Shown here: piece by piece, positions 964 to 58,910 of the stretch
Position numbering within the stretch: position 1 is the first letter of the stretch
Layout: each line of letters begins with the position of its first letter
From: Paracoccaceae bacterium
GTDB lineage: Bacteria; Pseudomonadota; Alphaproteobacteria; Rhodobacterales; Rhodobacteraceae
Assembly: GCA_026417295.1 (NCBI GenBank)
Contig: JAOADN010000005.1
Coordinates: 1-64,000, forward strand
Direction of reading: 5' to 3'
Length of the DNA: 64,000 bases
The notes under the pieces: generated by a model
What the model saw: the letters and a program-made list of their open reading frames with translations, nothing else
Databases searched by the model: none
Told to the model about the DNA's origin: nothing
Position numbers and translations under genes: made by a program

Positions 964-981
964 GGTCCGTCGCGCCGGCGC

Positions 982-1558: not shown

Positions 1559-1587
1559 TTGAAACGGCCCGTTCCCGCGACTATTTT
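1559..1587 (+). promoter_or_regulatory. Sigma-70-type promoter of infC
   Basis: TTGAAA at 1559-1564 and TATTTT at 1582-1587 are separated by exactly 17 bases. They would place the transcript start near 1594, about 47 bases before the infC start. The match is by eye. Confidence 0.55.
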
Positions 1588-1640
1588 CCCCCGCAATCCG
1601 CCGCACAGGCGCCCCGTCAACGACAGAAGGACCGAAGGCC

Positions 1641-2180: not shown

Positions 2181-2201
2181 CGCCGTGGCAACGGCGCGGA
2201 C

Positions 2202-2227
2202 GGCCCTCCCCCGGCGGGAGGGCCTTT
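2202..2227 (+). terminator. Rho-independent terminator after infC
   Basis: A 9-bp perfect stem (2202-2210 with 2216-2224) is followed by TTT. It lies directly after the infC stop codon and before the rlmJ ribosome binding site. Confidence 0.8.
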
Positions 2228-2246
2228 GCGTTCCGGGAGGCCGCGC

Positions 2247-3134
2247 ATGCTGTCCTACCAGCACCTCTATCACGCCGGCAATGCCGCCGACGTGCACAAG
2301 CACGCCCTGCTTGCCGCAGCCCTGGCGCTGATGACGGCGCGGCCGAAGCCGCTGAGCTACATCGAGACCCATGCCGGGCGCGGGCTTTACGACCTGGCGG
2401 CGCCCGAGGCGCTGAAGACCGGCGAGGCGGCGCAGGGAATCGGCCGGCTGGAGGCCGGGCTGCCGGCCGACCACCCGCTGCGGCTGGCGCTGGGGCGCGT
2501 GCGCGCGGCGCACGGGCCTGCGGCCTATCCGGGCTCGCCGCTGGTGGCGGCCGCTCTCCTGCGCCCGGGGGATCGCATGCAGCTGGCCGAGCTGCATCCG
2601 CAGGAACATGCCGCGCTTCAGCAGGCCATGCGCGGAACGGGCGCCGTGCTGCGCCGGCAGGACGGATTCGCCCTGGCCCTGTCGCTGGTGCCCCCGGTGC
2701 CGCGGCGCGGTTTCATGCTGATCGACCCGAGCTTCGAGGTGAAGGCCGACTACGACCGCCTGCCCCGCCTGGTGGCGCAGGTCCACGCGAAGTGGAACGT
2801 CGGCGTCCTGATGCTGTGGTATCCGCTTCTGGCCGACGACCGCCACGGGCCGATGCTGGCGGCGCTCGCCGGCCTCGGCCTGCCCAGGACCCTTCGCCAC
2901 GAGGTCCGCTTCCCGCCCGCGCGCCCCGGCCACGGGATGACCGGGTCGGGTGTCTTCTTCGTGAACGCCCCGCATGGCCTCGAGGCCGAGGCCGGGCGCA
3001 TCGCTTCCCTCTTCGCCGGCGCAGGGGGCCGGGAGGGGCCGCCGGCCGGCGCTGCGCCCGCGGCGCGCCCCGGCCCTGCCCTGCCCCGCCCGCCCGTCAG
3101 GCCGCGGCCACGGCGCGGGCCGTCAGCACCCTGA
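2247..3134 (+). CDS. rlmJ: 23S rRNA (adenine(2030)-N(6))-methyltransferase
   Basis: RlmJ methylates N6 of A2030 in 23S rRNA with S-adenosylmethionine. The N-terminus MLSYQHLYHAGNAADVHKH is diagnostic of the family. The catalytic motif appears as DPSFE, where many members have DPPYE. I chose the ATG at 2247 because GGGAGG precedes it and because family proteins begin there. The last 40 or so residues are a Pro/Arg/Ala-rich extension of doubtful function, and the 3' end overlaps the convergent coxM by 38 bases. The gene follows the infC terminator, so it probably has its own promoter. Confidence 0.88.
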   Translation: MLSYQHLYHAGNAADVHKHALLAAALALMTARPKPLSYIETHAGRGLYDLAAPEALKTGEAAQGIGRLEAGLPADHPLRLALGRVRAAHGPAAYPGSPLVAAALLRPGDRMQLAELHPQEHAALQQAMRGTGAVLRRQDGFALALSLVPPVPRRGFMLIDPSFEVKADYDRLPRLVAQVHAKWNVGVLMLWYPLLADDRHGPMLAALAGLGLPRTLRHEVRFPPARPGHGMTGSGVFFVNAPHGLEAEAGRIASLFAGAGGREGPPAGAAPAARPGPALPRPPVRPRPRRGPSAP

Positions 3135-3885
3135 CGAGGTTCGCCCGGTATTCGGGCGTTCCGTGCAGGTCGCCGATCATGCCCTTGGGCGAGACCTTCA
3201 GCCCCTCGACGGCAGAGGGCCTGAAGGCGGCCGTCAGCGCCTTCTCGGCCTCCTTCCAGCGGTAGACCCCGCCCTCGGAGGCGCCCGTCACCGCGACGCG
3301 CACGCCGTCGTCGAACCGGGCCACGAAGACCCCGGTCAGGGCGAAGCGCGAGGCTGGCTGGCGGAACTTCTGGTAGCTCGCCTTCCTTGGCACGGGGAAG
3401 CGCACCTCGATGATGATCTCGCCCTCGGCGAGGGCCGTCGAGAACATGCCGCGGAAGAACTTGTCGGCCGGGATCTTCCGCCGGTTGGTGACGATCGTCG
3501 CGCCCGAGGCCAGCACCGCCGCCGGGTAGCAGGCGGCCGGATCGTTGTTGGCAAGCGAGCCGCCGATGGTTCCGCGCGAGCGCACCGCCGGGTCGCCGAT
3601 TCCGCCGGCCAGCGCGGCCAGCGCGGGATAGAGCTTGCGCGCCTCGCGGGCGACGACGGCATGGGGTGTCCCGCCGCCGACGGCGACCATCCCGTCATCC
3701 GTCCGGCAGACCCCCTTCATCTCGGCGATGCCCGTCAGGCTGACCAGCACCGAGGGCGAGGCCAGCCGGTTCTTCAGCGTCGGGATCAGGGTCTGGCCGC
3801 CGCCGAGGGCGAGCGCCTCGTCGCGCTTCAGGGCCTTGACGGCCTCGGCGATCGTCCTGGGGCGGGCGAATTCGAAGGCATACAT
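3097..3885 (-). CDS. coxM: Molybdenum hydroxylase FAD subunit (CO dehydrogenase medium-subunit type)
   Basis: This is a 262-residue FAD-binding subunit of the xanthine oxidase/CO dehydrogenase family. It takes electrons from the [2Fe-2S] subunit and passes them to the electron acceptor. It starts MYAFEFARPRTIAEAV. The FAD-binding motif ALGGGQTLIP is near residue 27 and RSRGTIGGSLANNDPA near residue 105. The ATG at 3885 is preceded by a GGGGGAG ribosome binding site. It is the third gene of a coxS-coxL-coxM operon, the order seen for form II enzymes. The substrate is not evident. Confidence 0.9.
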   Translation of the reverse strand: MYAFEFARPRTIAEAVKALKRDEALALGGGQTLIPTLKNRLASPSVLVSLTGIAEMKGVCRTDDGMVAVGGGTPHAVVAREARKLYPALAALAGGIGDPAVRSRGTIGGSLANNDPAACYPAAVLASGATIVTNRRKIPADKFFRGMFSTALAEGEIIIEVRFPVPRKASYQKFRQPASRFALTGVFVARFDDGVRVAVTGASEGGVYRWKEAEKALTAAFRPSAVEGLKVSPKGMIGDLHGTPEYRANLVRVLTARAVAAA

Positions 3886-3904
3886 GGTCCGGCTCTCCCC
3901 CTTC

Positions 3905-6277
3905 TCAGCGCTGCATCGCCGACCAGACCCGCACCGGGCTGAGCGGCATGTCGATGTGCCTGACATGCGTGTAGCCGCCCCGGTGCAGGGCATCGATCAC
4001 CGCGTTGACGACCGCCGGCGGCGAGCCGATGGCCCCGGCCTCGCCGCAGCCCTTGACCCCCAGCGGATTGTGGGTGCAGGGCGTCCGGCAGGAATGGTCG
4101 ACGCGGAAGAACGGCAGGTCGTCGGCGCGCGGCATGGCATAGTCCATGTAGCTCGCCGTCAGCAGCTGGCCGGAGGAATCGTAGACCGCCCCCTCGGTCA
4201 GCGCCTGGCCGATGCCCTGCGCAAGGCCGCCATGGACCTGCCCCTCGACGATCAGCGGGTTGACGATGTTGCCGAAGTCGTCCGCCGCCGCGAATGAGGC
4301 GATGGTCACCTTGCCGGTCCCCGGATCGACCTCGACCTCGCAGGCATAGGCGCCGGCCGGATAGGTGAAGTTCGCCGGATCGTAGAAGGCCGTCTCCTCG
4401 AGCCCGGGCTCGAGGCTCTCGTGCGGGAAGTTGTGCGGCACATAGGCCTTCAGGCAGACCGCGCCCCAGTCCACGGACTTGTCGGTGCCCACGACGCTGA
4501 ACTTCCCGTCCCTGAACTCGACGTCCTCGGGGGCGGCCTCCATCATGTGGGCGGCGATCTTCTTCGCCTTGGCGATGATCTTGTCGGTCGCCCGCACGAT
4601 GGCCGAGCCGCAGACCGCCAGCGACCGCGAGCCGTAGGAGCCCATGCCGAAGGGAATCTTCGAGGTGTCGCCATGGACGATCTCGATGCTCGATTCGGGG
4701 ATGCCCAGCCTTTCGGCCACGACCTGGGCGAAGGCGGTCTCGTGCCCCTGCCCGTGGCTGTGGGCGCCGGTCATGATCGACAGGTTTCCGGTCGCGTTCA
4801 CCCGCACGGTGGCCGCATCGTAAAGGCCGACGCGCGCGCCGAGCGCCCCGACGAGGTTCGAGGGCGCGATGCCGCAGGCCTCGATGTAGCAGTTCACGCC
4901 AAGCCCGCGCAGCAGGCCCTTGCGGGCGCTCTCGGCCCGGCGCTGCTCGAAGCCGGCGATGTCGGCGATCTCGACCAGCCGGTCCATCGTCGCCCCGTAG
5001 TTGCCGGTGTCGTACTGCAGGCCGACCGGCGTGGTATAGGGGAACATGTCGGGCGTGATGAAGTTCCTGCGGCGGATCTCGATCGGGTCGATCCCGAGCT
5101 CGCGCGCGGCCACGTCGATCACGCGCTCGATCGAGAAGGTCGCCTCGGGCCGTCCGGCGCCGCGATAGGCATCGACGGGGGCGGTGTTGGTGAACACCGT
5201 CTTGACGTTCACGTAGACGTTGGGAACGCGGTAGTTCCCCGCCATCAGCGTGCCGTGCAGGAAGGTGGGCGTGACGGTCGAGAAGTTCGACAGGTAGGCG
5301 CCCACGTTGGCCAGCGTCTCGGTGCGGATGGCGATGAAGGTCCCGTCCTTCTCGCAGGCCAGCTCGATCTTGGTCACATGGTCGCGGCCATGGGCATCGG
5401 CAAGGAAGCTCTCGGACCGTTCGGCCGTCCATTTCACCGGCCGCCCGAGCCTGCGCGCCGCGGCCAGGACCAGCGCCTCCTCGCCGTAGTGGTAGATCTT
5501 CGATCCGAAGCCGCCGCCCACATCGGGGGCGACCACGGTAAGCTTGTGTTCGGGGATGCCCAGCACGAAGGCCGCCACCAGCAGCCGCGTCAGATGCGGA
5601 TTCTGGCTGGTCGTCGTGAGCCGGTAGTCGCCCGTTCCGGGATTGTACTCGCCGATCGACGCGCGGGGTTCCATCGCGTTGGGGATCAGGCGGTTGTTGA
5701 CGAGGTGCAGCGTCGTGACATGCGGCGCCGCCCTGATCGCGGCATCGACCTTCGCGCGGTTGTCCTCGATCCAGCCCCAGTCGAAGCAGACGTTGTCGGG
5801 CAGTTCGTCATGGACCCGGTTCTTCGGGTTGCGCACCGCCTCGGCCATGTCGACGACGGCGGGCAGTTCCCGGATGTCGGCGACGATCGCCTCGGCCGCG
5901 TCGCGCGCCTGGGCATAGGTCTCGGCGACGACGGCGGCATAGGCGTCGCCGACATGGCGCACCTTGCCATGGGCAAGGACGGGGCGCTTGGGCTCGCGCA
6001 TCGGGGTGCCGTCGCGCGAGCCGATGAACCAGCCGGCGGGGTTGCCGCCCACATCCTTGAAGTCCTCGCCGGTGAAGATCGCAAGGACCCCCGGCATCTT
6101 CGCGGCGGCGCGGGTATCGATCTTGCCGATCCGTCCATGCGCCACCTGGCTGCGCAGGAACACCGCATGCGCCTGGCCCTGCACGTTCACGTCGTCGGTA
6201 TAGGTGCCGCGCCCCATCAGGAAGCGGACATCCTCGCGGCGCGTCATCGGCGCACCGATGCCATGATCCTTCGGCAT
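3905..6277 (-). CDS. coxL: Molybdenum hydroxylase large subunit, form II CO-dehydrogenase type
   Basis: This is the 790-residue molybdopterin subunit of an aerobic CO dehydrogenase/xanthine oxidase-family enzyme. Cofactor-binding GGGFGSK is at residues 254-260. The catalytic Glu lies in [17 protein letters not shown], around residue 746. The active-site loop reads AYRGAGR (370-376). Genuine form I CO dehydrogenases have AYXCSFR there, including the Cu/Mo-bridging cysteine, which is absent here. The enzyme is therefore a form II member whose physiological substrate may not be CO. It starts at [20 protein letters not shown] and follows coxS by 14 bases. Maturation requires the CoxD/CoxE/CoxF-like proteins found 5-12 kb away. 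Confidence 0.92.
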
Positions 6278-6291
6278 GACTGACCCCCTTC

Positions 6292-6777
6292 CTATTCCGC
6301 CGCGATCCGCGACACGTCCTGGCCGGACGCGGCGAGCACCGCCTTGACGATGTTGTGATAGCCCGTGCAGCGGCAGATGTTGCCGTCGAGATAGGCGCGG
6401 ATCTCGGCCTCGGTCGGCTTGCGGTTCTCCTTCAGAAGCGCCGCGGCCGACATCACCATGCCGGGGGTGCAGAAGCCGCATTGCAGGCCGTGATGGTCCT
6501 GGAAGGCCTTCTGGATGACGCCGAGCGACCCGTCCGGGTTCGCCATGCCCTCGATCGTCGTCACCTTCGCCCCTTCGGCATCAAGCGCGAAGACCGAACA
6601 GGCCTTGACCGGCGCGCCGTCGAGATGGACCACGCAGGCGCCGCATTGCGAGGTGTCGCATCCGACATGGGTGCCGGTCAGCCCCAGATCGTCGCGCAGG
6701 AAGTCGGACAGGAGCGTCCGTCCCTCGACCTCGCCGGAAACGGCCATGCCGTTCACGGTCATCGTCACCTTCGGCAT
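6292..6777 (-). CDS. coxS: Molybdenum hydroxylase [2Fe-2S] subunit (CO dehydrogenase small-subunit type)
   Basis: This is the 161-residue iron-sulfur subunit of the same enzyme. The plant-ferredoxin-type cluster uses Cys40, 45, 48 and 60. The second, C-terminal cluster uses Cys100, 103, 135 and 137 (CGFC and CRC motifs). The start at 6777 has a strong AGGGAGGAAAAT upstream region. It is the first gene of the coxSLM operon and diverges from the VOC gene across a 150-base GC-rich gap. Confidence 0.93.
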
Positions 6778-6929
6778 ATTTTCCTCCCTTTTCCCGGCCG
6801 GAAGTTTAAGCATGGGCCATCGAGTCGGGGAACGGGCTTGTTGCGGGGGTCTGGCAGGCCCCGCCCGCCGGGGGCCGGCCCTCCCCTGCGGTCCCCGCGG
6901 GCAGGATCGGGCCGAAGGGGGGGGCAGAC

Positions 6930-7337
6930 ATGGCCCGCGTGACGGGAATCGGCGGCATCTTCTTCAAGGCCAGGGGCAATCCGGCCGCACTTGCGGCCTG
7001 GTACCGCGACTATCTGGGCCTGCCGTTCCAGGACTGGGGCGGTGCGGTCCTGGACTGGCAGGCCGACGCCCGGGCCGATGGCGGGCTGACGGTCTGGCAT
7101 CTGGCCGAGCCGGGATCGGACTGGTTCGCCCCCTCGGCGGCCCCGTTCATGGTCAATTACCGGGTGGACGACCTTGACGGCATCGTCGCGCGCCTGGCGG
7201 ATGGCGGCTTTCCGCTGGCGCAGGGCCCCGAGGATCACCCCAACGGCCGCTTCGCCTGGGTCATGGATCCCGAGGGCAACCGGGTCGAGCTGTGGGAGCC
7301 GCGGCCCTGGCAGGAGGAGCCGGGCCAGGGGTCCTAG
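6930..7337 (+). CDS. VOC-family (glyoxalase/bleomycin-resistance fold) protein
   Basis: This is a 135-residue protein with the vicinal-oxygen-chelate fold. It contains an N-terminal [11 protein letters not shown] segment and the family-typical [13 protein letters not shown] near residue 115, whose Glu usually binds metal. The substrate cannot be told. A GGGGGG-rich ribosome binding site precedes the ATG. It diverges from coxS and its last four bases overlap the convergent LysE-type gene. Confidence 0.8.
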
Positions 7338-7984
7338 CGGGCCTGCGTCCTGAGGATCGTCACGGCGAAGACGCCGAAGACGCCGGCGAAGAGCCAGTCG
7401 ATCACGCGCAGCACGCCGGGATTGCGGCGCAGGACGGCAAGGAACCGCGCCGCGCCGGCGATCAGGATGGCGGCGAGCACGAAGTTGACCGCGATGAAGT
7501 AGAAGCCGAGGAAGAAGAGCTTGGCCGGCGCATGCGGGTCGGCGGCCGACACGAAGCCGGGCAGGAAGGTGATGAAGAAGATCACCACCTTCGGATTGGT
7601 CAGGTTGACCATGAGACCGGTCAGGAACACCGGCACAAGCGGCAGCTGGCGCGGCGGGGCGCCCGTCTCGTCCACGCGCAGCACCGTGCCCCTGCGGATC
7701 GTCTGGACGGCGAGGAACAGGAGGTAGACTGCGCCGACGATCTTCATCGTGTTGAAGGCCACCGGCGAGGCGCGGATGAGGACCGAGATCCCGAGCGCGG
7801 CAAGCACCGTATGGACGGCGCAGCCGAGGCTGGTTCCCGCCATGGCGGCAAGGCCGGCCCGGCGCCCGCCGGCGACGGTCTTGGCCAGCCACAGGCTCAT
7901 GTCCGGGCCTGGCGTCGCGAAGAGGATGAAGCCCGCCACCGTGAAGGCGAGCAGGACCGGCAGATCTGGCACGAAGAAGGGCAT
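7334..7984 (-). CDS. LysE/RhtB-family amino-acid exporter
   Basis: This is a 216-residue inner-membrane protein with about six hydrophobic segments. The family signature GPDMSLWLAKTVAGGRRAGLA lies near residue 26. Members export amino acids or related small molecules. The actual substrate is unknown. It is divergent from the DUF2189 gene and stands alone. Confidence 0.85.
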   Translation of the reverse strand: MPFFVPDLPVLLAFTVAGFILFATPGPDMSLWLAKTVAGGRRAGLAAMAGTSLGCAVHTVLAALGISVLIRASPVAFNTMKIVGAVYLLFLAVQTIRRGTVLRVDETGAPPRQLPLVPVFLTGLMVNLTNPKVVIFFITFLPGFVSAADPHAPAKLFFLGFYFIAVNFVLAAILIAGAARFLAVLRRNPGVLRVIDWLFAGVFGVFAVTILRTQAR

Positions 7985-8154
7985 GGAGGCGACGCTTAGG
8001 CGAGGGCCGGGGCGGCCGCAAGGCGCCGGGTGCCGGAAAGTTGCATGCAGGGCGCGCGAAACGTGCTAGGCTTGCGGCCGACGGGTGACGGCGCGACGGG
8101 GCGCATGTCCCTGCCCGCCGCCGGCCGCCCGCGGACCATACGGGAGGACGGGCG

Positions 8155-9009
8155 ATGACGGAAACCATCGGCAACCCCCTTTCCTGGGGCGCGCAGTTCT
8201 TCGGCCGGGCGGGAGAGGCGGCGCAGGCCGCCCATGACGGGCTGGCGGGGGCGGCGGCCGAGCCGCCGGCGATCCGTGCCATCGGCACGGCCGACATCCG
8301 GGCGGCGCTGCGGGACGGCATGGCCGACTTCATGGCCCTGCGCACCGACGTGATCGCCATGTGCCTGCTCTATCCGCTGATCGGGGCGCTCATCGTCTAT
8401 GCGGCGCTGAACCAGAACTTCGTGCATCTGGTCTATCCCCTGCTCTCGGGCTTTGCGCTGGTCGGGCCCGCGGCGGCGGTCGGGCTTTACGAGATGTCGA
8501 AGCGCCGCGAGGCCGGGCTGGAGACCGGCTGGGCCGACGGATTCCGCGTGCTCCGCTCGCCCTCGATCGCCGGGATCGCGGTCCTTGCGGCGATGCTGGC
8601 CGGCACCTTCGCGATATGGATCCTCGTCGCGCTCGGCGTCCATGCCCTGACCATGGGCCCCGACCTGCCGGTATCGGCGCGCGCCTTCCTGACCGAGGTC
8701 CTGACCACCGGCCACGGCTGGGCGATGATCGTCCTCGGCACCGGCGTGGGCTTCGTCTTCGCCGCCGCCGTGCTGGTCGCCAGCGCCTTCTCCTTCCCGC
8801 TGATGGTGGACCGTCCGGTCGGCCTGCCGGTGGCGGTCGTCACCTCGGCGCGGGTGGCGCGGCAGAGCCCCGGCACGGTCGCCCTCTGGGGGCTGATCGT
8901 CGCCGCCCTGCTTGTCCTGGGCTCGATCCCGCTGCTTCTGGGGCTGGCGGTCGTGCTGCCCGTCCTCGGGCACGCGACGTGGCACCTCTACCGCCGCGCC
9001 GTGGTCTGA
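8155..9009 (+). CDS. DUF2189-family integral membrane protein
   Basis: This is a 284-residue inner-membrane protein. A soluble N-terminal 70 residues is followed by about six membrane segments, and the charged stretch LYEMSKRREAGLETGWADGF in the middle is typical of DUF2189. No function is established for the family. A GGGAGGA ribosome binding site lies at the right distance from the ATG. Confidence 0.8.
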   Translation: MTETIGNPLSWGAQFFGRAGEAAQAAHDGLAGAAAEPPAIRAIGTADIRAALRDGMADFMALRTDVIAMCLLYPLIGALIVYAALNQNFVHLVYPLLSGFALVGPAAAVGLYEMSKRREAGLETGWADGFRVLRSPSIAGIAVLAAMLAGTFAIWILVALGVHALTMGPDLPVSARAFLTEVLTTGHGWAMIVLGTGVGFVFAAAVLVASAFSFPLMVDRPVGLPVAVVTSARVARQSPGTVALWGLIVAALLVLGSIPLLLGLAVVLPVLGHATWHLYRRAVV

Positions 9010-9075
9010 GCGGGCCTTGCGGCGGGCGGGCTTCGGCGGCAGGTTCGGCGGCAGAGCCTGCTGCGGAGCCCTGCC

Positions 9076-9387
9076 ATGACCCGATCCCTCTGCGCCCTTG
9101 CCCTGATCGCGGCCTCTGCCCTGCCCTCCTGCACCCAGCCGTCGAAATGGGGCGAGGTCGAGGGCGTGGCCGAGGCCGCGCCCGGCGCCGTGGCGGCCTG
9201 CGCCTATGTCGCCGACATCACGGTGAAGCCTTCGGCCTATGGCGTGCTGGAAAGCGAGGGGCGCGCCTATGCCCGCTACCAGGTCAAGCGCGAGGCGCGC
9301 GACGGCGGGGCGAACGTGGTGGTCTTCGAGCCGCCGCGCCAGGGCGATGACCCCTACCTCGTCCGCGCCACGGCCTATCGCTGCTGA
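9076..9387 (+). CDS. Small putative lipoprotein
   Basis: This is a 103-residue exported protein. The signal peptide ends in an LPSC lipobox, so it is probably anchored by the Cys near residue 19. The mature part (YVADITVKPSAYG, then GGANVVVFEPP) resembles the DUF4156-like enterobacterial small lipoproteins, but the match is weak. Its 3' end overlaps the convergent next gene by 13 bases. Confidence 0.6.
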   Translation: MTRSLCALALIAASALPSCTQPSKWGEVEGVAEAAPGAVAACAYVADITVKPSAYGVLESEGRAYARYQVKREARDGGANVVVFEPPRQGDDPYLVRATAYRC

Positions 9388-10346
9388 TCGGGCCAGCGCC
9401 GCTTCGGCAGGCGGATCCCCTCGGCGCGCAGTTCGGCCTCGAGCTCGGCCAGGCGCACCTGGAAGCGCGGATTGCGCAGCCGCTCGACGACGTTGCGGCA
9501 GACCAGCGCGTTGAGATAGGGCCGCTCGTCGCGCTCGAGCCGCTCGGAGAGGGCCCGCAGGTAGGGCTGGTGGTTGCGCCTTGCCCGCATGAAGGTCGCG
9601 AAGAGGCGGGCATCGAATGTGCCCGTGCCGGCGGCATGCAGGATGGCCGTCATCACGCTCATCTCCTCAAGCGCGGCGGCCAGTCCGGGGCCGAAGTAGC
9701 GGCAGGGCAGGAGCGTCGTCCAGGGGCGGGCGAACAGCGCGGCATGCATCGCGTCGAGCCGTTCGAATGGATCGTAGAGGATGAAGACCGGCCCCGCGCC
9801 CTCGGTCATCTCCGGGGCGAAGCCGTAGCGGTCGGTGAACGAGACGCGGCGCATGGCGCGGAAGCGCGGGTCCCATCCGGCGACCGCCGGGTCGAGCGAG
9901 GCCTGGGGATGCACGGCGACCACGGTGGCCCCCGGCGCGCTGACCGAGAAGGCGGCGGCGGCATAGCCGGCCATGCCCGCCCCGTAGAAGACGACCTGGT
10001 CGAAATCCTCGAAGAAGGCGTCGTCCACCAGCCTGTCGAAGAGCGCATAGACGGCCCGGTCGCGATACCAGGTGTCGCCGTCGGCAAGCAGGCAGAGATG
10101 CGACCAGCCCTTGCGCCCGGCGGCGCGGAGCCCGAAGGGCAGCTGCACCATGTCGCGGCCGCGCACCCCTGCGATGGTCTCGAAGGTCACGATCAGGACC
10201 GGCCCGTCATCGACGTAGAGTGCGGCATGCCGCGGCCCGAGCCGCGCGAAGAAGCCGCCGTCGTCGGCATACCCCGCGAGGTGGTCGAGCCACTCCCTGT
10301 CGGACAGCGACCGAAGGTCGTTGTCGCTTACCGCCATGTCCGGCAT
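9375..10346 (-). CDS. Conserved protein, alpha/beta-hydrolase-like segment, function unknown
   Basis: This is a 323-residue soluble protein that I do not firmly recognise. It contains VVFYGAGMAGYAAAAFSVSAPGATVVAVHP around residues 115-145. That reads like a nucleophile elbow plus following strand of an alpha/beta-hydrolase fold, but without the catalytic Ser. The C-terminal third is an Arg/Glu-rich helical region. It lies directly downstream of a glycosyltransferase on the same strand. Relatives in this family may carry unrelated database names, so no enzyme name is given. The start may be the ATG at 10346 or the one three codons later at 10337. Confidence 0.6.
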   Translation of the reverse strand: MPDMAVSDNDLRSLSDREWLDHLAGYADDGGFFARLGPRHAALYVDDGPVLIVTFETIAGVRGRDMVQLPFGLRAAGRKGWSHLCLLADGDTWYRDRAVYALFDRLVDDAFFEDFDQVVFYGAGMAGYAAAAFSVSAPGATVVAVHPQASLDPAVAGWDPRFRAMRRVSFTDRYGFAPEMTEGAGPVFILYDPFERLDAMHAALFARPWTTLLPCRYFGPGLAAALEEMSVMTAILHAAGTGTFDARLFATFMRARRNHQPYLRALSERLERDERPYLNALVCRNVVERLRNPRFQVRLAELEAELRAEGIRLPKRRWPDQQR

Positions 10347-10367
10347 CCCCGGCCGTATCAGTTCCGC

Positions 10368-10383
10368 GTGAAGAAAATTTCAC
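10368..10383. promoter_or_regulatory. GTGAA-N6-TTCAC inverted repeat
   Basis: A perfect 5-bp inverted repeat with an AT-rich centre lies 22 bases upstream of the start at 10346, inside otherwise very GC-rich DNA. It is a possible operator. Confidence 0.3.
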
Positions 10384-10499
10384 ACCCCGCAGACACTCTG
10401 CCCGCCCGGTCCGGGGCGTGCAAGAAGCCATCGCGCGCCCCGGCAACTTCGCTGGGGATATGCCTGCGGCCGGCCGGGCCCGGCGTTCGCGCCGCGCAA

Positions 10500-11582
10500 T
10501 CAATCCCCGGCAGAGGACGCCTCTGTTGACCGTCGCGCACCCGCGGCCGCCCGCGCCGCATGGGCATGGAGCAGCGCGACAGCGCGCCCGGGCAGCACGC
10601 GCGAGGGCGGCGCCATCATCAGGCGGGCGAACAGGGCCCGGACCCGCTCGTCGCGCATGAGATCGGCGAATCGCTGCCGGCGCCAGCGGACCGCCGCCTC
10701 GTGCAGCGGGCCCAGCACGGGATCGGCGCGCAGCGCCGCGCGCAGGGGCGCGCTGCGCTCCTCGATCCCCTGGATCGTGCGGTCCTCTTCGGTCACGAAG
10801 TTGCGGTCGATCCAGTAGGACATGTCGAAGGGTTCGGCCGCGCGGTTGGCCCGCCCGCGACCGACCTTGACGACATAGCTTTCCATCGCGCCGAGCGCAT
10901 AGTGGTTCAGCTGGACAAGGCCGTGGTTGTCCTGCCCGAGTTCCGAGAAGATGCGTCCGCGGCGGAAGGCCGGGGGCAGCGGGCGCCCCGCGCCGTCCAC
11001 CCAGCGCGCCGCCTCGATGCGGGCGGGATCGGGATCGCGCGGCCGGTGCACGCCCAGCCGCCGGTAGGTGCCGTCGTTGCGGAAGAGCGTCTTGAACAGC
11101 GCCGCCCGCCAGGGCCAGTGCAGGTCGTGCGGCGCGGCGCGGACGAACTGGGCGGTGACCGGCTGGTCCCGGTAATCGACGATCCCGGCATTGCCGAAGA
11201 GCCGCCAGGTCATCGCGATGGCCGTCGCCCCCGGCACCGCGGCGAGCAGGGCCGGGACGGTCCGGTCGCCGGCATGGATGTTGACGTATTCGTCGATGTC
11301 GATGACCGCGATCCAGTCGGCGGCGCGCCGCAGCGGGTGGCCCTCGGCCTGCCGCAGGGCCGCCCATTGCGGGCCGTTCCCGTGCGGGCCGGGATTGGGC
11401 AGATGGGTAAGCCAGCCCATCGCCTGGAGGCGGTCGAGCATGGCATCGGTGCCGTCCGAACAGTCGTTCGAGAAGACGAGGAAATCGGTGAATCCCGTGG
11501 CGCGGTGGTGGGCCAGCCAGTCGATGAGGAAGGCGCCCTCGTCGCGCACGGTCAGGACGGCAAGGATGCGGGCGGCGCTCAA
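10500..11582 (-). CDS. Glycosyltransferase family 2-like protein
   Basis: This is a 360-residue glycosyltransferase of the Glyco_tranf_2_4 / GT92-like type. The N-terminus reads LAVLTVRDEGAFLIDWLAHH and the metal/nucleotide-sugar site DIDEYV lies near residue 95. The start codon is a TTG, chosen because the conserved N-terminal strand begins right after it; GGAACG upstream is a weak ribosome binding site. The protein has no clear membrane segment. The acceptor is unknown. The downstream partner is the unknown 323-residue protein. Confidence 0.78.
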   Translation of the reverse strand: MSAARILAVLTVRDEGAFLIDWLAHHRATGFTDFLVFSNDCSDGTDAMLDRLQAMGWLTHLPNPGPHGNGPQWAALRQAEGHPLRRAADWIAVIDIDEYVNIHAGDRTVPALLAAVPGATAIAMTWRLFGNAGIVDYRDQPVTAQFVRAAPHDLHWPWRAALFKTLFRNDGTYRRLGVHRPRDPDPARIEAARWVDGAGRPLPPAFRRGRIFSELGQDNHGLVQLNHYALGAMESYVVKVGRGRANRAAEPFDMSYWIDRNFVTEEDRTIQGIEERSAPLRAALRADPVLGPLHEAAVRWRRQRFADLMRDERVRALFARLMMAPPSRVLPGRAVALLHAHAARAAAGARRSTEASSAGD

Positions 11583-50989: not shown

Positions 50990-51924
50990 CGCTTCTCTCC
51001 AAGCCCTGGATCTGGGCCTATCTGGCGGCCGCGCTGACCTTCGTGCCCACGGCGATGCTCTCGCAGGGCGTGGGCGGCGCATGGGAGCTCGTCCTCGCGG
51101 CGCTGACCTTCGCCGCCTTCTCCGTCCTGGTCGGGCTCGGCCAGATGCTCGTCATCACCATGGGGCCGGGCAACATCGACCTGTCGATCCCGGCCACGAT
51201 GACGCTCGCGGGCACGCTGTCGCTGAAATACATGGACGGCGCCGCCGGCACCGGCGCGGCGGGCCTTGCCGTGGCCCTTGCGGTGGGTCTGGCCTGCGGG
51301 GCGGGCAACTACCTGCTCATCCGGCTGCTCCGCATCCCGCCGATCATCGCCACGCTCGCCGCCTCGTTCCTCTACCAGTCGCTCGCCATCTGGTCGAACC
51401 GCGGGCTGCGCATCAAGCCGCCCGCCTGGCTTGCCGACTTCGCCACCGGCGCCGCCCTCGGCGTGCCGAACGTCGCCGTCGTGGCCGGGCTTCTCGCCGT
51501 CCTCTTCTGGGTGCTGCTCGAAAGGTCGGTCTACGGGCGCTGGCTCTCGGCCATCGGGCAGAACCAGCGGGCGGCGCGGCTGGCCGGCGTGCCGGTCGAT
51601 CTCGTGCGCATGGCGACCTACCTGATCTCGGCCGTCATGGCCGCCCTCTGCGGGTTCCTCCTCTCCTGCTTCTCGGGCGGGGCCGCGCTGAACATGGGGG
51701 CGGAATACCTGCTCATCTCGATCGCCGTCGTGGTGATCGGGGGCTCCTCGATCGCCGGCGGCAATTCCAACGTGCCGGGGATCTGGGGCGCCTCGCTGTT
51801 CCTTTTCCTGATCGTGTCGATGCTCAATTCCTACGGGCTCGGCGCGGGCGTCCGTCTCATCATGACCGGCGTCATCATCATCGCGATCGTCGCCGTCGCC
51901 AGCGGCAGCAGGAGGGCAAGTTGA
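50986..51924 (+). CDS. Sugar ABC transporter permease 2 (RbsC type)
   Basis: This is a 312-residue permease, the second half of a heterodimeric channel. The family motif appears as MGPGNIDLSIPATMTLAG near residue 60, and GGAALNMGAEYLLISIAVVVIGGSSIAGG in the C-terminal half. The GTG start overlaps the previous stop (GTGA), and the stop overlaps the gluconolactonase TTG. Confidence 0.9.
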   Translation: MTLLSKPWIWAYLAAALTFVPTAMLSQGVGGAWELVLAALTFAAFSVLVGLGQMLVITMGPGNIDLSIPATMTLAGTLSLKYMDGAAGTGAAGLAVALAVGLACGAGNYLLIRLLRIPPIIATLAASFLYQSLAIWSNRGLRIKPPAWLADFATGAALGVPNVAVVAGLLAVLFWVLLERSVYGRWLSAIGQNQRAARLAGVPVDLVRMATYLISAVMAALCGFLLSCFSGGAALNMGAEYLLISIAVVVIGGSSIAGGNSNVPGIWGASLFLFLIVSMLNSYGLGAGVRLIMTGVIIIAIVAVASGSRRAS

Positions 51925-52826
51925 CCGAGGACAGCCCCTACGAGATCCACGACCCCCGCTTCCGCCGGCTGATCCACCCCAGCGCCAGGCTGGAGCGCAT
52001 CGCCACGGGATTCCGCTGGGCCGAAGGGCCGGTCTGGTTCCCGGCCATGGGGTGCCTGCTGTTCTCGGACATCCCCGAGAACCGGATGATGCGCTGGACC
52101 GAGGACGGCCAGCTCGGCCTGTTCCGCGCGCCCGCGGACTTCGCCAACGGCAACACGCGCGACCGGCAGGGGCGGCTGGTCACCTGCCATCACGGCACGC
52201 GCTCCGTGGTGCGCACCGAACATGACGGGACGCGGACCATCCTTGCCGACCGCTTCGCCGGGCAGCGCCTGAACTCGCCCAACGACGTCGTCGTCCGGTC
52301 GGACGGCTCGATCTGGTTCACCGATCCCACCTACGGGATCATGTCGGACTACGAGGGCCATGCCGCCCCGCGCGAACAGGCGGCCAACCGCGTCTACCGG
52401 ATCGATCCCGCCTCCGGCGAGGTCGCCGCCGTCAGCGAGGATTTCGTCCAGCCGAACGGGCTCGCCTTCTCGCCGGCCGAGGACATCCTCTATGTCGCCG
52501 AAAGCGGGTCCAGCCACGACCCCGCCGTGCCCGCCGTGATCCGCGCCTATCCCGTCGCCGGCGACCGGCTGGGCCCGGGGCGGGACTTCGCGACGATCGA
52601 CAGCGGCCTGCCCGACGGGTTCCGCCTCGACCGCAGCGGCAACCTCTGGTCGTCGGCGGCCGATGGCGTGCATGTCTTCTCGCCCGAAGGGGTGCTCCTC
52701 GGCAAGATCCGCACGCCCGAGACGGTCGCCAACCTGACCTTCGGCGGGCGGCGCGGCCACCGGCTCTTCATCGCCGCGACGACCTCGGTCTATGCGGTCT
52801 ATGTCGAGGCCGCGGGCGCCGTCTGA
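51921..52826 (+). CDS. SMP-30/gluconolactonase-family protein
   Basis: This is a 301-residue six-bladed propeller without signal peptide. Metal-binding positions are in WAEGPVWFP, LNSPNDVVV, VQPNGLAFSP and the Asp of GLPDGFRLD. It hydrolyses sugar lactones in the cytoplasm. The start is a TTG overlapping the permease stop (TTGA), with AGGAGGGC just upstream. Its place at the end of the transporter operon suggests that the imported sugar is oxidised to a lactone and then hydrolysed. The dehydrogenase is not in the window. Confidence 0.88.
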   Translation: MTEDSPYEIHDPRFRRLIHPSARLERIATGFRWAEGPVWFPAMGCLLFSDIPENRMMRWTEDGQLGLFRAPADFANGNTRDRQGRLVTCHHGTRSVVRTEHDGTRTILADRFAGQRLNSPNDVVVRSDGSIWFTDPTYGIMSDYEGHAAPREQAANRVYRIDPASGEVAAVSEDFVQPNGLAFSPAEDILYVAESGSSHDPAVPAVIRAYPVAGDRLGPGRDFATIDSGLPDGFRLDRSGNLWSSAADGVHVFSPEGVLLGKIRTPETVANLTFGGRRGHRLFIAATTSVYAVYVEAAGAV

Positions 52827-52841
52827 CGCCTGCCCCGGGGA

Positions 52842-52985
52842 CCCCCGCAGCCCGCACCACCCGCACCGCCCCCGCAGCCCGCACCACCCGCGCAAGCCTG
52901 CGCGCGCCCCCGCACGCCCCCGCGCGCCCCCGCGCGCGCCCCCGCACGCCCCCGCGCGCCCCCGCACGCCCCCGCGCGCGCACTG
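52842..52985. repeat. Extremely GC-rich low-complexity tandem repeat
   Basis: This fills the gap between the gluconolactonase and CoA-transferase genes. First, a 23-base unit is repeated with a 27-base period (52842 and 52869). Then irregular 10-12-base units of the type CCCCCGCGCG / CCCCCGCACG continue to 52984, with almost no A or T. No gene is seen in it. Confidence 0.8.
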
Positions 52986-52990
52986 CCCGG

Positions 52991-54205
52991 TCAGGCCGCC
53001 GGCGGGCCGGCGACGATCCCCCGGTCGTGCAGGGCGCCGATGGCCCCCGAGGGCAGGCCCAGAAGCTCGGCCAGGACGGCATCCGTGTCGGCCCCGAGCG
53101 CGGGCGCCGGCCGCTGCGCCCGGCGCGCCTCGCCGGCGATGCGCGCGACGGCCCCCGCGGCAAGGTGCCGGCCCACGCCCGGCGTCCCGATCACCTCGAA
53201 CAGCGGATTGGCGGTCGAGACCCGCGGGTCCTCCGCCAGCAGGCCCCGCACCGTCCGGTATTCGCCCCAGCACACGCCGTGCCGGTCGAAGGCCTCCGCC
53301 ACCTCGGCCAGTCCGCGCCCCTCGAACCACAGCGCGACCAGCGCGCCGATCAGGTCGCGCCCGCGGAAGCGGTCCTCCTCGTCCGCGAAGTCCAGGCCCG
53401 TCGCCGCCTCCAGCGCCGCGATGCCCGGCCCGATCCCGCAGGCGGCGACCAGCGCCTGCCACTGCCGGCCCGAGATCGCCGCCACCATCACCCGCCGCCC
53501 GTCCGCGGTCACGAAATCCCGGCCGAAGGCGCCATAGATGTCGTTGCCGATGGCCGGCCGGTCCCGCTCCAGAAGCTCCGCCTCGGCCAGGACGCCGAGA
53601 TGCGACAGGGTCGCGAAGGCCACGTCCGACAGGGCGATGCGCAGCGCCGCGCCCGCCCCCGTGGCCTGCCGGCGCAGCATCGCCGCCGCCAGGGCGGTGC
53701 TGGCCTGAAGGGCGCAGGCGATGTCCCAGGCGGGCAGCGCATGGTTCACCGGCGGCCCGCCAGGCTGCCCGGTCATCGCCGGATAGCCGGTGGCGCAGTT
53801 CACCGTGTAGTCGACCGCCGTCGAGCCGTCCGGGTTGCCCTCGATGACGCAGCTGATCATGTCGGCGCGGCGCGCCGCCAGCACCTCGTGGGCCAGCCAG
53901 GGCACGGCGATGTTGGTCAGCAGCACCCCCGCCTGCGCCGCCGTCGCCAGCGCCGCCACCAGCTCGCGCCCCTCGGGCGCACGGATGTCCACCGCGACCG
54001 AGCGCTTGCCCTTGTTCAGCCCCGTCCAGTACAGGCTGCGCCCGCCGGGCATCCGCGGCATCCGGTTGTAGTCGATGCCGCCCCCGATCGGGTCGATGCG
54101 GATGACCTCGGCGCCGTACTGCGCCAGCGTCAGCCCGCAGAGCGGGGCGGCGATGAAGGCCGAGCTCTCGATGACCTTCAGCCCGTCGAGCAACCCGTAG
54201 GTCAT
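52991..54205 (-). CDS. CaiB/BaiF-family CoA-transferase
   Basis: This is a 404-residue type III CoA-transferase. N-terminal [30 protein letters not shown] is followed by the catalytic Asp161 in [10 protein letters not shown]. The acyl group is unknown. I chose the ATG at 54205; a longer start at 54247 would run towards the tRNA. No dehydratase or acyl-CoA dehydrogenase is adjacent. Its 3' end faces the GC repeat. Confidence 0.9.
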
Positions 54206-54258
54206 CTGGCGTTCCCCGGCCTTCCCGTCGATCCCGGCCGGCGGCATCTCCGGTAACG

Positions 54259-54335
54259 TGGCGCACCCGACAGGATTCGAACCTGTGACCTCTGCCTTCG
54301 GAGGGCAGCACTCTATCCAGCTGAGCTACGGGTGC
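54259..54335 (-). tRNA. tRNA-Arg(CCG)
   Basis: A complete 77-base cloverleaf is present. The acceptor stem GCACCCG pairs with CGGGTGC. The anticodon arm CTGCC-CTCCGAA-GGCAG gives anticodon CCG (reads CGG), and the T-arm is ACAGG-TTCGAAT-CCTGT. Discriminator G is followed by an encoded CCA. Confidence 0.96.
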
Positions 54336-54533
54336 CTCGCGCGCCCCTATAGACCGCCGCGCCGGGCCGGGCAACGGGGAACTGCGCGGCAGAACTCCGC
54401 CGGTCCCCGCCCCGCCCGGGGCGCGTCGAGGGCACCCGCGCTTGCCACGCGAGCGGCGAATCGGGTTCAAATGCGCGGATGGCCCGCGGCCGGGCGAAGG
54501 CCCGCGCGTGCTCCGGGGGGATGGAGTATCTGG

Positions 54534-56690
54534 ATGAGGGTGACCGCCAGGTCCGGCCTTGCGCGCGGCCTTGTGCTGCTTGCCGCGGCCGGAACGCTCG
54601 CGGCCTGCAGGGGCGGCGGGCTGACCGGCTTCGAGAACCCCAACGATCCCCCCGCCCCGCGCGACGGCAGCGTGCTGTCGGCCTTCTTCCGGCAGGCCTT
54701 CTCGCCCGCCGAGGTCGCCGCCGCCCTCCCGCTCCTGACCGATGACGCGCGCTATACCCGCCAGCAGAACACCTGGTCCTTCACGGATTCGCAGGGCGCG
54801 CCGACCAGCCCGTTCTACGACAGCTTTCCCCTGCGCAATTCCGGGGCTGCCTTTGCCCATGCCACCGGCCTGACCGGCGCGGGCCAGACCGTCGTCGTCG
54901 TCGACGCGGGCTTCCGCGCCAGCCACGAGGCGATCGCCGGCCGCGTCGCGGCCACGATCGGCGCGGTCGGTCAGGACAGCCACGGCACCTCGGTCGCCTC
55001 GGTGGTGGCCGGCAACTCGGCCACGATGACCGGCATCGCGCCGGGCGCGATGGTGGCCCTCGGCAGCTACGCCACCCTTTCGACCCTGACCGCCGCGACG
55101 ACCTACGCCGACAGCGTGAATGCCGTCGCCCAGAACAATTCCTGGGGCTATGTCGATGCGCCCGTGGGGCAGACCTCCTACCAGGACATCCTCGGCGGCC
55201 CGGCGGGCGCGGGCTACGAGGCGGCGCTGCGCAGCTACCTGTCCGGGGCCGCCGGCGGCGTCGTCGTGTTCTCCGTGTCCAACCGGTCGGGGGCGCGCAA
55301 TGCCGGCCTGATGGAAGCGCTGCCCTGGGTCCTGCCCGACCTCGAGAAGGGCTGGATCGCAGCGGCGAACGCCGTCCCCACGATGTCGGGCGATACCGTC
55401 ACCTCGGTCCAGATGATCTCGGCCCCCTGCATGGAGGCCGCCCGCTGGTGCCTTCTGGCCGACGGAACCTGGCAGGCCGCCACCGCCGACAGCGATACCG
55501 CCTACGGGCTGGTGACCGGGTCCTCCTTCGCCGCGCCCCAGGTCTCGGGCGCGCTCGCCCTGCTTGCCCAGGCCTTCCCCGGGCTCGGGCCGCAGGACCT
55601 GCGCCTGCGCCTGCTCGCCTCGGCCCAGGACGACTTCTTCGTGCCCGACGCCTCGGTCGAACTGGCCGCAGGCTTCACCAAGGGCTACTCCTGGCGCTAC
55701 GGCATGGGCTTCCTCGACATCCGCGCCGCGCTCCTGCCCATCGGGACGACGTCCATGACCATGGCCGACGGCCGCGTGGTGGCAACCGGGGCGGCCCGCA
55801 TGACCGCCGGTTCGGCCATGGGCGATGCGGTGACGAAGGCGCTGTCGGGCATCGACATCGCCGTCACCGACAGCCTCGGGGCGGGCTTTGCCATGCCCGG
55901 CGAGGCGCTCGTCACCCGCAGCGCGCCCGCCCCGCTGGTGGCCGGGCTGCGCGCCGCGGCCTTCTCGGGCGATCTCAGGCTGCGCCGGATGGCCGCGCCC
56001 GGGGCCGCTTCCCTGGCCTTCGACGCCTTTCCCGGCCGGACGCTCGCCTTCGCCGCGCCCGAGGGCGGCGCCCATGGCGCCATCCTCCTGCCCGGCGCCG
56101 GCAGCTACGGCCTGGCCCTCGGCCATTCCCTCACCGCGGGCGACACGCGGCTCGACCTCGGGCTCCGGCTGGCCAGCGACGGCGGGCAGCTCGTCGGGCT
56201 TGCCCCCGGCGCCGGGGCCGACCTCGCCGGGCTGGCCTTCGGCCTGACGCAGGAGACGGGGGGCGGCTTCCTGCGCCTGGCAGGCGAGGCCGGGATCGCG
56301 CGGATCGCCGCGCCTGCCGGGGTCAGCCGCATCTCGGGCGCGGGCTATGACAGCCTCGCCCTCGGCGCGGGTGCCTACGACGTCTTCGCCCGCGGCGACC
56401 GGCTGACCCTCGGCATCGGCATGCCGCTGGCCATGCGCTCGGGCACGGTGCGGATGACCCTGCCCGTCGCCGTCGCCGCCAGCGCCGCCGGCGGCCCGGC
56501 CACCGAGAGCCGCAGCATCGACATCGGCCTCGCGCCCGAGGACCGCCAGATCGACCTGTCGCTCGACTACCAGGTGCCGGTCGGCCAGGGCACCGAGATC
56601 CTGTTCGGCCTGCGCCATGCCGAGAATTTCGGCAACCAGGCCGGAATCAGCGATACCGGCGGGGTCCTCGCCATCCAGATCAGCTTCTGA
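54534..56690 (+). CDS. Lipidated subtilase (S8) autotransporter
   Basis: This is a 718-residue surface protease. The signal peptide ends in lipobox LAAC (Cys25). The S8 peptidase domain covers about residues 110-390, with Asp124 (VVVVDAGF), His150 ([13 protein letters not shown]), oxyanion Asn250 and Ser331 ([14 protein letters not shown]). The C-terminal 280 residues are Gly/Ala/Leu-rich strands ending in AIQISF, like an autotransporter barrel with terminal Phe. The layout resembles NalP of Neisseria and SphB1 of Bordetella, lipoprotein proteases that process surface proteins. GGAG precedes the ATG. It lies right after the tRNA-Arg on the other strand. Confidence 0.85.
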
Positions 56691-56698
56691 CCCGCGCC

Positions 56699-57574
56699 CT
56701 AGTCGCCCAGCGGGACGGCCAGGACGCGCCCCTCGTAGGGGGCGCCGGCCGTGTTGTCGACGGCCATGACATACATCACCCTGCCGTCCGGGGCGAAGGT
56801 CAGGTTGGGCGCCGCCGTCGCGCCGGTGTCATGCACGCGCACCAGCGTGCCGTCCGGCGCCACCTCGAGGATCCGCCCCGAGGAATACTGGCCGACGAAG
56901 AAGTTGCCGTTCGGCCCCAGCTTGATCCCGTCCGGATAGGCGCCCGCATCCTCGCCCATCCGGTAGAGCCGGATGAAGAGGCGCCGGTCCTCCAGCCCGC
57001 CATCCGCCCCCACCGCGAACGAGATCACGCGCCCCGCCTCGGATTCGTTCACGTAAAGGCGCCCGTCCGGCCCGAAGGCCACGCCGTTGGCATAATGCAG
57101 GTCGTCGGCGACCGGGCGGGCCACCCCGTCCGGCGTGACATGCACGATCCGACCGACGATGGGGCCCGCCTCCCATGGCCCCGAGAGCGAGACATAGGCC
57201 CCGCCCCGGCCGTCGGGCGCCCCGTCGTTCGGCCCCTGCAACGCCCCGCCCCCGGCATCGGCATCGATCACCCGCAGCGTCTCGCCCGCCTGCGAGATGA
57301 CGGCCAGCGTGCCGCTGTCGTAGCATGTCACCAGCCAGTCCGCGCCGAAGGGAATGACGGCCGAGGGGCCGCAGCCCTCCTGCCGCCAGAGGGTGCGGCG
57401 GGCCTTGCCGTCCCAGGCGGTGACCTCGTTGCCGGCATACTGGGCATAGACCAGCGTCGATCCGGCCATGACCGGCCCCTCGGGAAAGAGCGCATGGTCG
57501 TCGATCACCCCCGTCTCGGCCCCGGCCGGCGCCGCAAGCCAGGCGGCCAGGACTGCAATCGGCATGCGGGACAT
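56699..57574 (-). CDS. Exported SMP-30/gluconolactonase-like protein
   Basis: This is a 291-residue propeller protein. A signal peptide (MSRMPIAVLAAWLAAPAGAE) makes it periplasmic, unlike the cytoplasmic homologue at 51.9 kb. Motifs are FPEGPVM, QGPNDGAPDGRGG, ANGVAFGPDGRLYVNE and YPDGIKLGPNGNF. A periplasmic lactonase acting after a PQQ-type sugar dehydrogenase is possible but unproven. GGGGGGAGG precedes the ATG. It converges with the autotransporter gene. Confidence 0.82.
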   Translation of the reverse strand: MSRMPIAVLAAWLAAPAGAETGVIDDHALFPEGPVMAGSTLVYAQYAGNEVTAWDGKARRTLWRQEGCGPSAVIPFGADWLVTCYDSGTLAVISQAGETLRVIDADAGGGALQGPNDGAPDGRGGAYVSLSGPWEAGPIVGRIVHVTPDGVARPVADDLHYANGVAFGPDGRLYVNESEAGRVISFAVGADGGLEDRRLFIRLYRMGEDAGAYPDGIKLGPNGNFFVGQYSSGRILEVAPDGTLVRVHDTGATAAPNLTFAPDGRVMYVMAVDNTAGAPYEGRVLAVPLGD

Positions 57575-57689: not shown

Positions 57690-58910
57690 CTAGCCGAAAA
57701 GGTCGTGGCAAAGCTCCAGCGCCTCGACCAGCGCGTCCACCTCGGCCGTCGTGTTGTAAAGGCCGAAGGACGCCCGGCAGGTCGCGCTGACCCCCAGATG
57801 CGCCATCAGCGGCATCGCGCAGTGGGTGCCTGCGCGCACCGCGATCCCGCGCTGGTCCAGCACGGTTGACAGGTCGTGCGCATGGGCCGGGCCGTCCAGG
57901 GTGAAGCTGAATATGGCGCCCTTGTCCTTCGACGTGCCCTGCAGGTTCAGCCAGTTCAGGCCGCGGAACCGCTCCATCGCGTAGTCGCGCAAGGCCGCCT
58001 CGTGGGCGGCCACGTTCTCCATCCCGAGGCCCATGAGGTAGTCGAGCGCCACGCCCATGCCGATCTGCTGGACGATGCCGGGGGTTCCGGCCTCGAACTT
58101 CATCGGCGGGTCGTTCCAGGTCACGCTCTCGCGCGTCACCTCGCGGATCATGTCGCCGCCGCCAAGGAAGGGGCGCATCTCGGCCATCCGCGCCTTCGCG
58201 ATCCAGATCGCGCCCGATCCGCTCGGCCCGTAAAGCTTGTGCCCGGTGATCGCGTAGAAATCGCAGTGCAGGTCCGGCACGCTGACCGGCGCATGGACCG
58301 CCCCCTGCGAGCCGTCCACCAGCACCGGCACGCCCCTTTCGTGCGCCGCCCGGCCGATCGCGGCCACGTCCACGCGCGCGCCGGTCACGTTCGACATCTG
58401 CGTCACCGCGACAAGCCGCGTCCTGGGCCCGATCGCGTCGATCACCTTCTGCGGGTCAAGCCCGCCATCGGGCTCCGGCTCGACCCATTTCAGCACCACG
58501 CCCTGCCTTTCGCGCAGGAAATGCCAGGGCACGATGTTGGCGTGATGTTCAAGGACCGACAGCACGATCTCGTCGCCCGCCTGCATCCGCGGCGCGGCCC
58601 AGGCGTAGGAGACAAGGTTGATCCCCTCGGTCGTGCCGGTCGTGAACACGATCTCCTCGGGGTCGGGCAGGCCGAGGAAGCGCGCCACGATCCCGCGCAC
58701 GCCCTCGTAGCGCTCGGTCGCGATCGTCGAAAGCGTGTGCAGGCCGCGGTGGACGTTGGCATAGTCCTCCTCGTAGACCTGCGTCATCGCGTCGATCACC
58801 ACGCGCGGCTTCTGCGCGCTGGCGCCGTTGTCGAGGTAGACGAGCGGCCGCCCGTTCACCTTGCGCGACAGGATCGGAAAGTCGCCGCGGATCCTCTGCA
58901 CGTCATACAC
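57690..58910 (-). CDS. sufS: Cysteine desulfurase SufS
   Basis: This is a 406-residue PLP enzyme that takes sulfur from cysteine as a persulfide for Fe-S assembly. The PLP lysine is Lys225 (ITGHKLYGPSG) and the persulfide cysteine Cys364 (RAGTHCAMP, where many homologues read RAGHHC). It is the last gene of the suf operon and its start overlaps the upstream YIP1-family gene by eight bases. Confidence 0.95.
   Translation of the reverse strand: MYDVQRIRGDFPILSRKVNGRPLVYLDNGASAQKPRVVIDAMTQVYEEDYANVHRGLHTLSTIATERYEGVRGIVARFLGLPDPEEIVFTTGTTEGINLVSYAWAAPRMQAGDEIVLSVLEHHANIVPWHFLRERQGVVLKWVEPEPDGGLDPQKVIDAIGPRTRLVAVTQMSNVTGARVDVAAIGRAAHERGVPVLVDGSQGAVHAPVSVPDLHCDFYAITGHKLYGPSGSGAIWIAKARMAEMRPFLGGGDMIREVTRESVTWNDPPMKFEAGTPGIVQQIGMGVALDYLMGLGMENVAAHEAALRDYAMERFRGLNWLNLQGTSKDKGAIFSFTLDGPAHAHDLSTVLDQRGIAVRAGTHCAMPLMAHLGVSATCRASFGLYNTTAEVDALVEALELCHDLFG

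Follow-up and report, generated by a model that had tools for sequence, protein, structure and literature searches.

A predicted lipid-anchored, stalkless subtilase with a C-terminal outer-membrane barrel in a Paracoccaceae bacterium

The window analysed here, 64,000 nucleotides of contig JAOADN010000005.1 from a Paracoccaceae bacterium (assembly GCA_026417295.1), carries a gene for a 718-residue lipoprotein that combines an S8 (subtilase) protease domain with a predicted C-terminal barrel. From computations of its sequence features, conservation, predicted fold, distribution and synteny, we find no counterpart of the beta-helix stalk that subtilase autotransporters are known to carry, and the barrel is not detectably a member of the autotransporter translocator family PF03797. 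The protein is probably a surface protease that is tethered by lipid, lacks a stalk and leaves the cell along an autotransporter-like route, and it most likely works as a variant of the known lipidated subtilase autotransporters, without the stalk and with a barrel of another kind.

Results

Conservation was assessed in 30 aligned full-length open reading frames (ORFs), the window's included, from which broken-frame copies and short pieces had been excluded beforehand; among them L024 is a distant member and L004 lacks the C-terminus. The gene and its parts are as follows, all on the forward strand, with fractions referring to this set.

54534..56690, forward strand: whole gene, a 718-residue lipoprotein S8 protease with C-terminal barrel (ORF translation, no internal stops)
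54523..54526, forward strand: likely ribosome-binding site GGAG, 7 bases 5' of the ATG, read from the sequence
54534..54605, forward strand: signal peptide with lipobox, residues 1-24; lipobox kept in 30/30
54606..54608, forward strand: Cys25, predicted lipidated residue, conserved in 30/30
54609..54854, forward strand: spacer or pro-region, residues 26-107, of low model confidence with two short helices (AlphaFold model)
54855..55739, forward strand: S8 protease domain, residues 108-402 (PF00082; Foldseek to subtilisins, fusolisin and Ssp)
54903..54905, forward strand: catalytic Asp124, conserved in 30/30
54981..54983, forward strand: catalytic His150, conserved in 30/30
55281..55283, forward strand: Asn250, conserved in 29/30
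55524..55526, forward strand: catalytic Ser331 in GSSFAAP, conserved in 30/30
55740..56069, forward strand: junction, residues 403-512, in the place of the beta-helix stalk (alignment, AlphaFold models)
56070..56687, forward strand: predicted 12-strand outer-membrane barrel, residues 513-718, with terminal Phe718 (AlphaFold, Foldseek, VIA-align, alternation test)

The first-pass annotation, which had read a lipobox, a catalytic triad and the terminal Phe718 from the letters, holds as an observation, with each of these at the residue it had named. The lipobox, L22-A23-A24-C25, had been described as perfect, and it is: the strict pattern [LVI][ASTVI][GAS]C, as given in part of PMC8151025, is matched by 30/30 of the full-length relatives. 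The residue that follows the cysteine is Gly in 19 of them, Lys in 4, Gln in 3, and Arg, Asn, Val or Leu in one each; it is never Asp. Because the lipobox is strict throughout and Asp never follows it, lipidation at Cys25 is, judging from the sequences, very likely.

The triad had likewise been called complete. Residues 115-373 match PF00082 with 70 bits (cut-off 21.8; E 2.1e-19), and Asp124, His150 and Ser331 stand in the contexts VVVVDAG, DSHGTS and TGSSFAAP. Asn250 is presumably the oxyanion-hole residue, as we assume from subtilisins. The Foldseek list for the full-length model, on which the structural matches of this domain rest, probes the protease half only. At 31-49% identity to the window protein (seven relatives of the first alignment), the family keeps nine positions invariant in 30/30, namely C25, D124, H150, N202, W204, C299, C306, S331 and D446. 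In its own genome, a 2.73 Mb assembly that is 77% complete, ORF 54534-56690 is the only match to PF00082.

Known subtilase autotransporters are described, in parts of PMC9289746 and PMC9977779, with an N-terminal protease of ~400 residues (PMC9289746) that a beta-helix stalk of about 200-250 residues (~200 in PMC9289746) separates from the barrel. Such a stalk is absent in all 30 full-length relatives, where the protease-to-barrel distance is 97-141 residues (30/30), with 109 in the window protein. What stands there is a junction predicted to consist of a flexible linker (403-422, of low model confidence and probably exposed), a conserved small segment of strand and helix with the invariant D446, and short helices preceding the barrel. 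The small size of the protein, 718 residues, which the first-pass annotation had remarked on, is explained by the missing stalk. The NalP/SphB1 architecture attributed to it at the same time stands in part: the lipoprotein, the subtilase and the 12-strand barrel are there, the beta-helix stalk and a detectable sequence kinship to the PF03797 translocator are not.

The C-terminal barrel was predicted twice. The full-length AlphaFold model, built on an 8-row alignment, has a mean pLDDT of 65 and a pTM of 0.53, with the C-terminal strands at about 80. A second run on residues 420-718 reached pLDDT 80.4 and pTM 0.74 and gave the same twelve long strands, at 513-716. The annotation had placed a barrel ending in Phe at 430-718; twelve strands and the Phe are found, and the extent narrows to 513-718 for the barrel proper. 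Among the 29 ORFs with an intact end, 27 have Phe as C-terminal residue, the exceptions being Tyr (L008) and Leu (L020). Hydrophobicity alternates between the inward and outward faces of the strands with a mean of 0.72, against 0.35 (sd 0.07) after within-strand shuffling and 0.33 in windows of the passenger, and 0/5000 reach 0.72 in either control; strand 656-665 by itself shows almost no alternation. Searched against the PDB with Foldseek, the barrel finds EspP in the first row (E 1.6e-3) and NalP in the sixth (5.2e-3), interspersed with porins, and nothing below 1e-3. VIA-align superposes it on the autotransporters AIDA-I (Z 11.7, 205 residues, rmsd 4.1), EspP (Z 11.7, 212 residues, rmsd 4.2) and BrkA (Z 11.3, 181 residues, rmsd 4.0). 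A transmembrane barrel is thus a well-supported prediction for the C-terminal domain.

To which family does this barrel belong? No model of the Pfam and NCBIfam libraries covers it, and in nine further S8 proteins PF03797 was unmatched at E 0.1. A search with the barrel only found 64/385 genomes of the class Alphaproteobacteria at E 1e-4. By hhalign the family barrel matches a wider 29-member barrel set at 99.9%, and this wider set matches PF03797 at 3.7%, no detected link. An S8 domain (E 1e-3) is also present in 30/34 of the barrel ORFs examined; among the remaining four, the ORFs of L076 and L084 are short, with 305 and 577 residues, that of L088 has its start at the end of a contig, and that of L089, which is truncated, narrowly misses the threshold (E 0.0012). 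The ORFs of the 29 wider loci mostly end ~1.5 kb upstream of the barrel match, and because of this cut their absent lipobox is uninformative. Taken from these sequences, the barrel family looks like an S8-dedicated module for which the libraries searched hold no model.

Within the wider set, seven loci (L061, L067, L068, L069, L073, L080 and L082) have an S8 domain in which a simple pattern does not find the usual serine motif; these may have either an altered motif or inactive proteases. In locus L085 (G754:C12:123500-135500) the ORF 324-10514 encodes 3397 residues; its start resembles a lipobox, S8 is matched at 1991-2120, and the C-terminal end is a barrel of the type described here.

Gene start and neighbourhood

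The start at 54534 is sound: a GGAG stands 7 bases ahead of it, L-A-A-C25 closes the 24-residue signal peptide, and an upstream GTG in the same frame overlaps the gene for tRNA-Arg(CCG). That GTG, at 54258, would open an ORF of 810 residues; it was rejected as overlapping the tRNA gene, with the conserved signal peptide beginning at 54534. An antisense ORF of 1595 residues (51831-56618, reverse strand) is taken as a high-GC shadow ORF. Neither a sigma-70-like promoter nor a terminator was found near the gene, which says little for such an organism. Three neighbours were noted.

54259..54335, reverse strand: tRNA-Arg (CCG), divergent neighbour and syntenic marker outside the protein system
56699-57574, reverse strand: gene for an SMP-30/gluconolactonase-like protein whose start resembles a signal peptide, located between the genes for the protease and the aminotransferase and convergent with the former
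57690..58910, reverse strand: class-V aminotransferase, right-hand syntenic marker, which we take to be sufS

A homology search of genome contigs gave 8 loci, among them Tabrizicola thermarum, Yoonia, Marivivens and two Pelagibacterium species. Protein searches of whole genomes at E 1e-3 matched 21/198 genomes of the family, which was sampled with one genome per genus, some of these matches being to distant S8 proteins only, and a profile search at E 1e-40 matched 18/390 genomes of the order and 2/31 near relatives (the window's own included). The gene family is therefore widespread but patchy and not confined to one organism, recurring within the alphaproteobacterial family to which the window belongs and also in Pelagibacterium. 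In the L016, L021 and L038 copies the reading frame is broken, which suggests either a dispensable gene that some lineages are in the course of losing or errors in the assemblies.

The tRNA-Arg(CCG) gene lies just upstream in 9/36 loci, divergent except in L002, and the seven complete protease copies beside this tRNA form one clade (support 100/99); sufS recurs beside the gene in 8/33 sources. Other tRNAs lie nearby in 4 loci, L006 (Ala), L015 (Ala), L044 (Glu) and L022 (Gly), all outside the tRNA-Arg clade; in the tree, L006 pairs with L015 as its sister. With 13/36 loci tRNA-adjacent, a mobile element was considered. However, in 8/18 family relatives that have sufS, tRNA-Arg(CCG) lies <=1.5 kb from it, and the protease gene is absent at E 1e-40 from all eight. 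The mobile-element reading was rejected, since a single tRNA-Arg clade and a marker pair kept together in gene-less relatives argue for an inherited site rather than repeated integration at tRNA ends. Either a single arrival placed the gene between two long-standing neighbours or its losses were frequent; since then, one clade has inherited it at this fixed site. No conserved partner gene stands out among the neighbour clusters listed, in which most other recurrent members are shadow ORFs, and with flanks of mostly ~1.5 kb this analysis could miss a weaker partner.

Discussion

How would such a protein reach the cell surface? The pathway that we consider is modelled on known lipoproteins and autotransporters, and in it lipidation, a passenger outside the cell, self-release and the substrates are what we infer. 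The precursor would cross the inner membrane via Sec, after which Lgt and Lsp would lipidate Cys25 and remove the signal peptide, as the conserved lipobox suggests. The C-terminal domain would become a 12-strand barrel in the outer membrane with help of the barrel assembly machinery (BAM); the genome holds one Omp85-family gene. The subtilase would be threaded out via the barrel or a BAM-barrel hybrid, with the junction helices remaining in or near the pore, and would fold outside, where the lipid would hold one of its ends and the barrel the opposite one. It might cleave itself in the flexible linker 403-422 and then be tethered by the lipid alone. By analogy to NalP and SphB1, the surface protease may trim or shed neighbouring surface proteins.

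Several observations weigh against export to the surface. The protein has neither a stalk nor an autochaperone, both of which are present in the solved subtilase autotransporter Ssp. PF03797 was unmatched at E 1 in 8/8 members of the 8-row alignment, and an hhalign comparison of the family barrel profile (28 rows) with 18 alphaproteobacterial PF03797 barrels gave a probability of 1.0%, near the 0.1% of the reversed control, whereas the two halves of the PF03797 set match each other at 100%. The top rows of VIA-align are KdgM, OmpG, CymA, FapF and FadL at Z 12-14, not autotransporters; because porins and channels outscore autotransporters there, the fold alone is no proof of an export barrel. 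As to a possible NalP-type substrate, no classical autotransporter with PF03797 above the cut-off was found in the protein's own genome (77% complete), and none at 1e-15 either. Finally, the passenger is placed outside the cell by inference.

Some of these observations would suit an outer-membrane lipoprotein that faces the periplasm, with its lipid in the inner leaflet, its barrel as an anchor or porin-like module and its subtilase acting on envelope proteins: the barrel lies outside PF03797, its best VIA-align rows are porins and channels, and there is no beta-helix to power export. Against this stand the autotransporter plan of a single passenger followed by a barrel, the helix-bearing junction before strand 1, the twelve strands, the terminal Phe, and the presence of EspP and NalP among the best Foldseek rows, and we regard this alternative as fairly unlikely. 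An export barrel is the likeliest kind for the modelled domain, judged by layout rather than by fold score. Still less probable, in our view, is that export proceeds likewise and ends with release of the passenger to the medium after little residence at the surface, the lipobox serving only for transit or outer-membrane targeting. The low-confidence, probably exposed linker 403-422 that joins protease and junction would allow this, and self-cleavage and release are described for Ssp in part of PMC9977779; yet the strictness of the lipobox in 30/30 relatives points to a lasting tether, and NalP function requires lipidation according to the title of a reference cited in PMC9289746. It is extremely improbable that there is no export module at all and that residues 430-718 are a soluble beta-rich sequence, with the barrel a modelling artefact. 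Such a reading could draw on the lack of a Pfam or NCBIfam model over the C-terminus and on the modest full-length model, but the run on the C-terminus repeats the twelve strands, their alternation lies above 5000/5000 shuffles, and VIA-align reaches Z 13.6 to outer-membrane barrels. Export as a lipid-anchored surface protease is the reading that we prefer. In its favour are the S8 match with its conserved triad, the conserved lipobox, the twelve modelled strands with their alternation, autotransporters among the structural matches, the terminal Phe, the Omp85-family gene and the linkage of the barrel family to S8 domains.

On what might such a protease act? NalP-like processing of classical autotransporters is unlikely in this genome because no PF03797 protein stands above the cut-off there, a judgement that applies at 77% completeness. 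One match to PF03797, in an open frame of 457 residues, scored 21 bits where the cut-off is 26 and was not accepted as an autotransporter, and in a search for PF05860 (two-partner secretion, TPS) the controls themselves were silent. RTX repeats (PF00353) gave 51 matches in several ORFs on contigs C124, C129, C144, C146, C16, C172 and C182, one ORF being of 2545 residues; as a guess, these RTX-repeat proteins may be surface or secreted proteins and possible targets.

More tentatively, and at slightly less than even odds, the barrel may represent a separate, previously undescribed alphaproteobacterial translocator family dedicated to S8 proteases, not descended from PF03797 or long parted from it. 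One Rhodobacterales branch of this family would then be an autotransporter reduced to the minimum, anchored by lipid and able to export its S8 protease with neither beta-helix nor autochaperone. In the open literature searched, we found no paper on Rhodobacterales subtilase autotransporters, nor one on an S8-linked barrel outside PF03797. A previous subtilisin survey (PMC2605481) reports that autotransporter-linked subtilisins cluster in Beta- and Gammaproteobacteria; the Pfam model it relied on does not recognise the barrel described here. The S8-linked family, found in 64 of the sampled alphaproteobacterial genomes, is invisible to that standard autotransporter model, so counts that depend on PF03797 would be too low for proteins of this kind. 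Lipid-anchored surface proteolysis, hitherto described from host-associated pathogens, would be extended to ordinary alphaproteobacteria. A stalkless lipoprotein would also offer a simple system in which to ask how a passenger is drawn out in the absence of a beta-helix and which leaflet holds the lipid, a point that a section of the review PMC8151025 states as not determined for lipidated autotransporters.

Comparison with known systems

The window protein has a lipobox, an S8 passenger and a C-terminal barrel in common with NalP of Neisseria meningitidis and SphB1 of Bordetella pertussis, which are presumably much longer. Among the closest solved subtilase autotransporter passengers are Ssp of Serratia marcescens (8e7f; sequence profile E 3.5e-26, also in Foldseek) and fusolisin of Fusobacterium nucleatum (found in Foldseek). 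NalP and SphB1 process other surface proteins while tethered by their lipid, as parts of PMC9289746, PMC9977779 and PMC8151025 describe, and in their group the protease is followed by a beta-helix of ~200 residues and the translocator is of the PF03797 type (PMC9289746, in part), whereas the window protein has neither. An autotransporter without a beta-helix is known in EstA of Pseudomonas aeruginosa (PMC9977779, in part), which is present in the Foldseek list of the barrel; its passenger is an esterase, in contrast to the S8 passenger here. The alphaproteobacterial S8-barrel proteins L055-L083 have a homologous barrel behind an S8 domain, although they are only partly covered, with the lipobox mostly outside the visible part, and some are without the usual serine motif. 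Because the stalk is missing and the barrel falls outside the translocator family, we assign the window protein neither to the PF03797 autotransporters nor, in full, to the NalP/SphB1 type; it most likely functions like a protein of that type.
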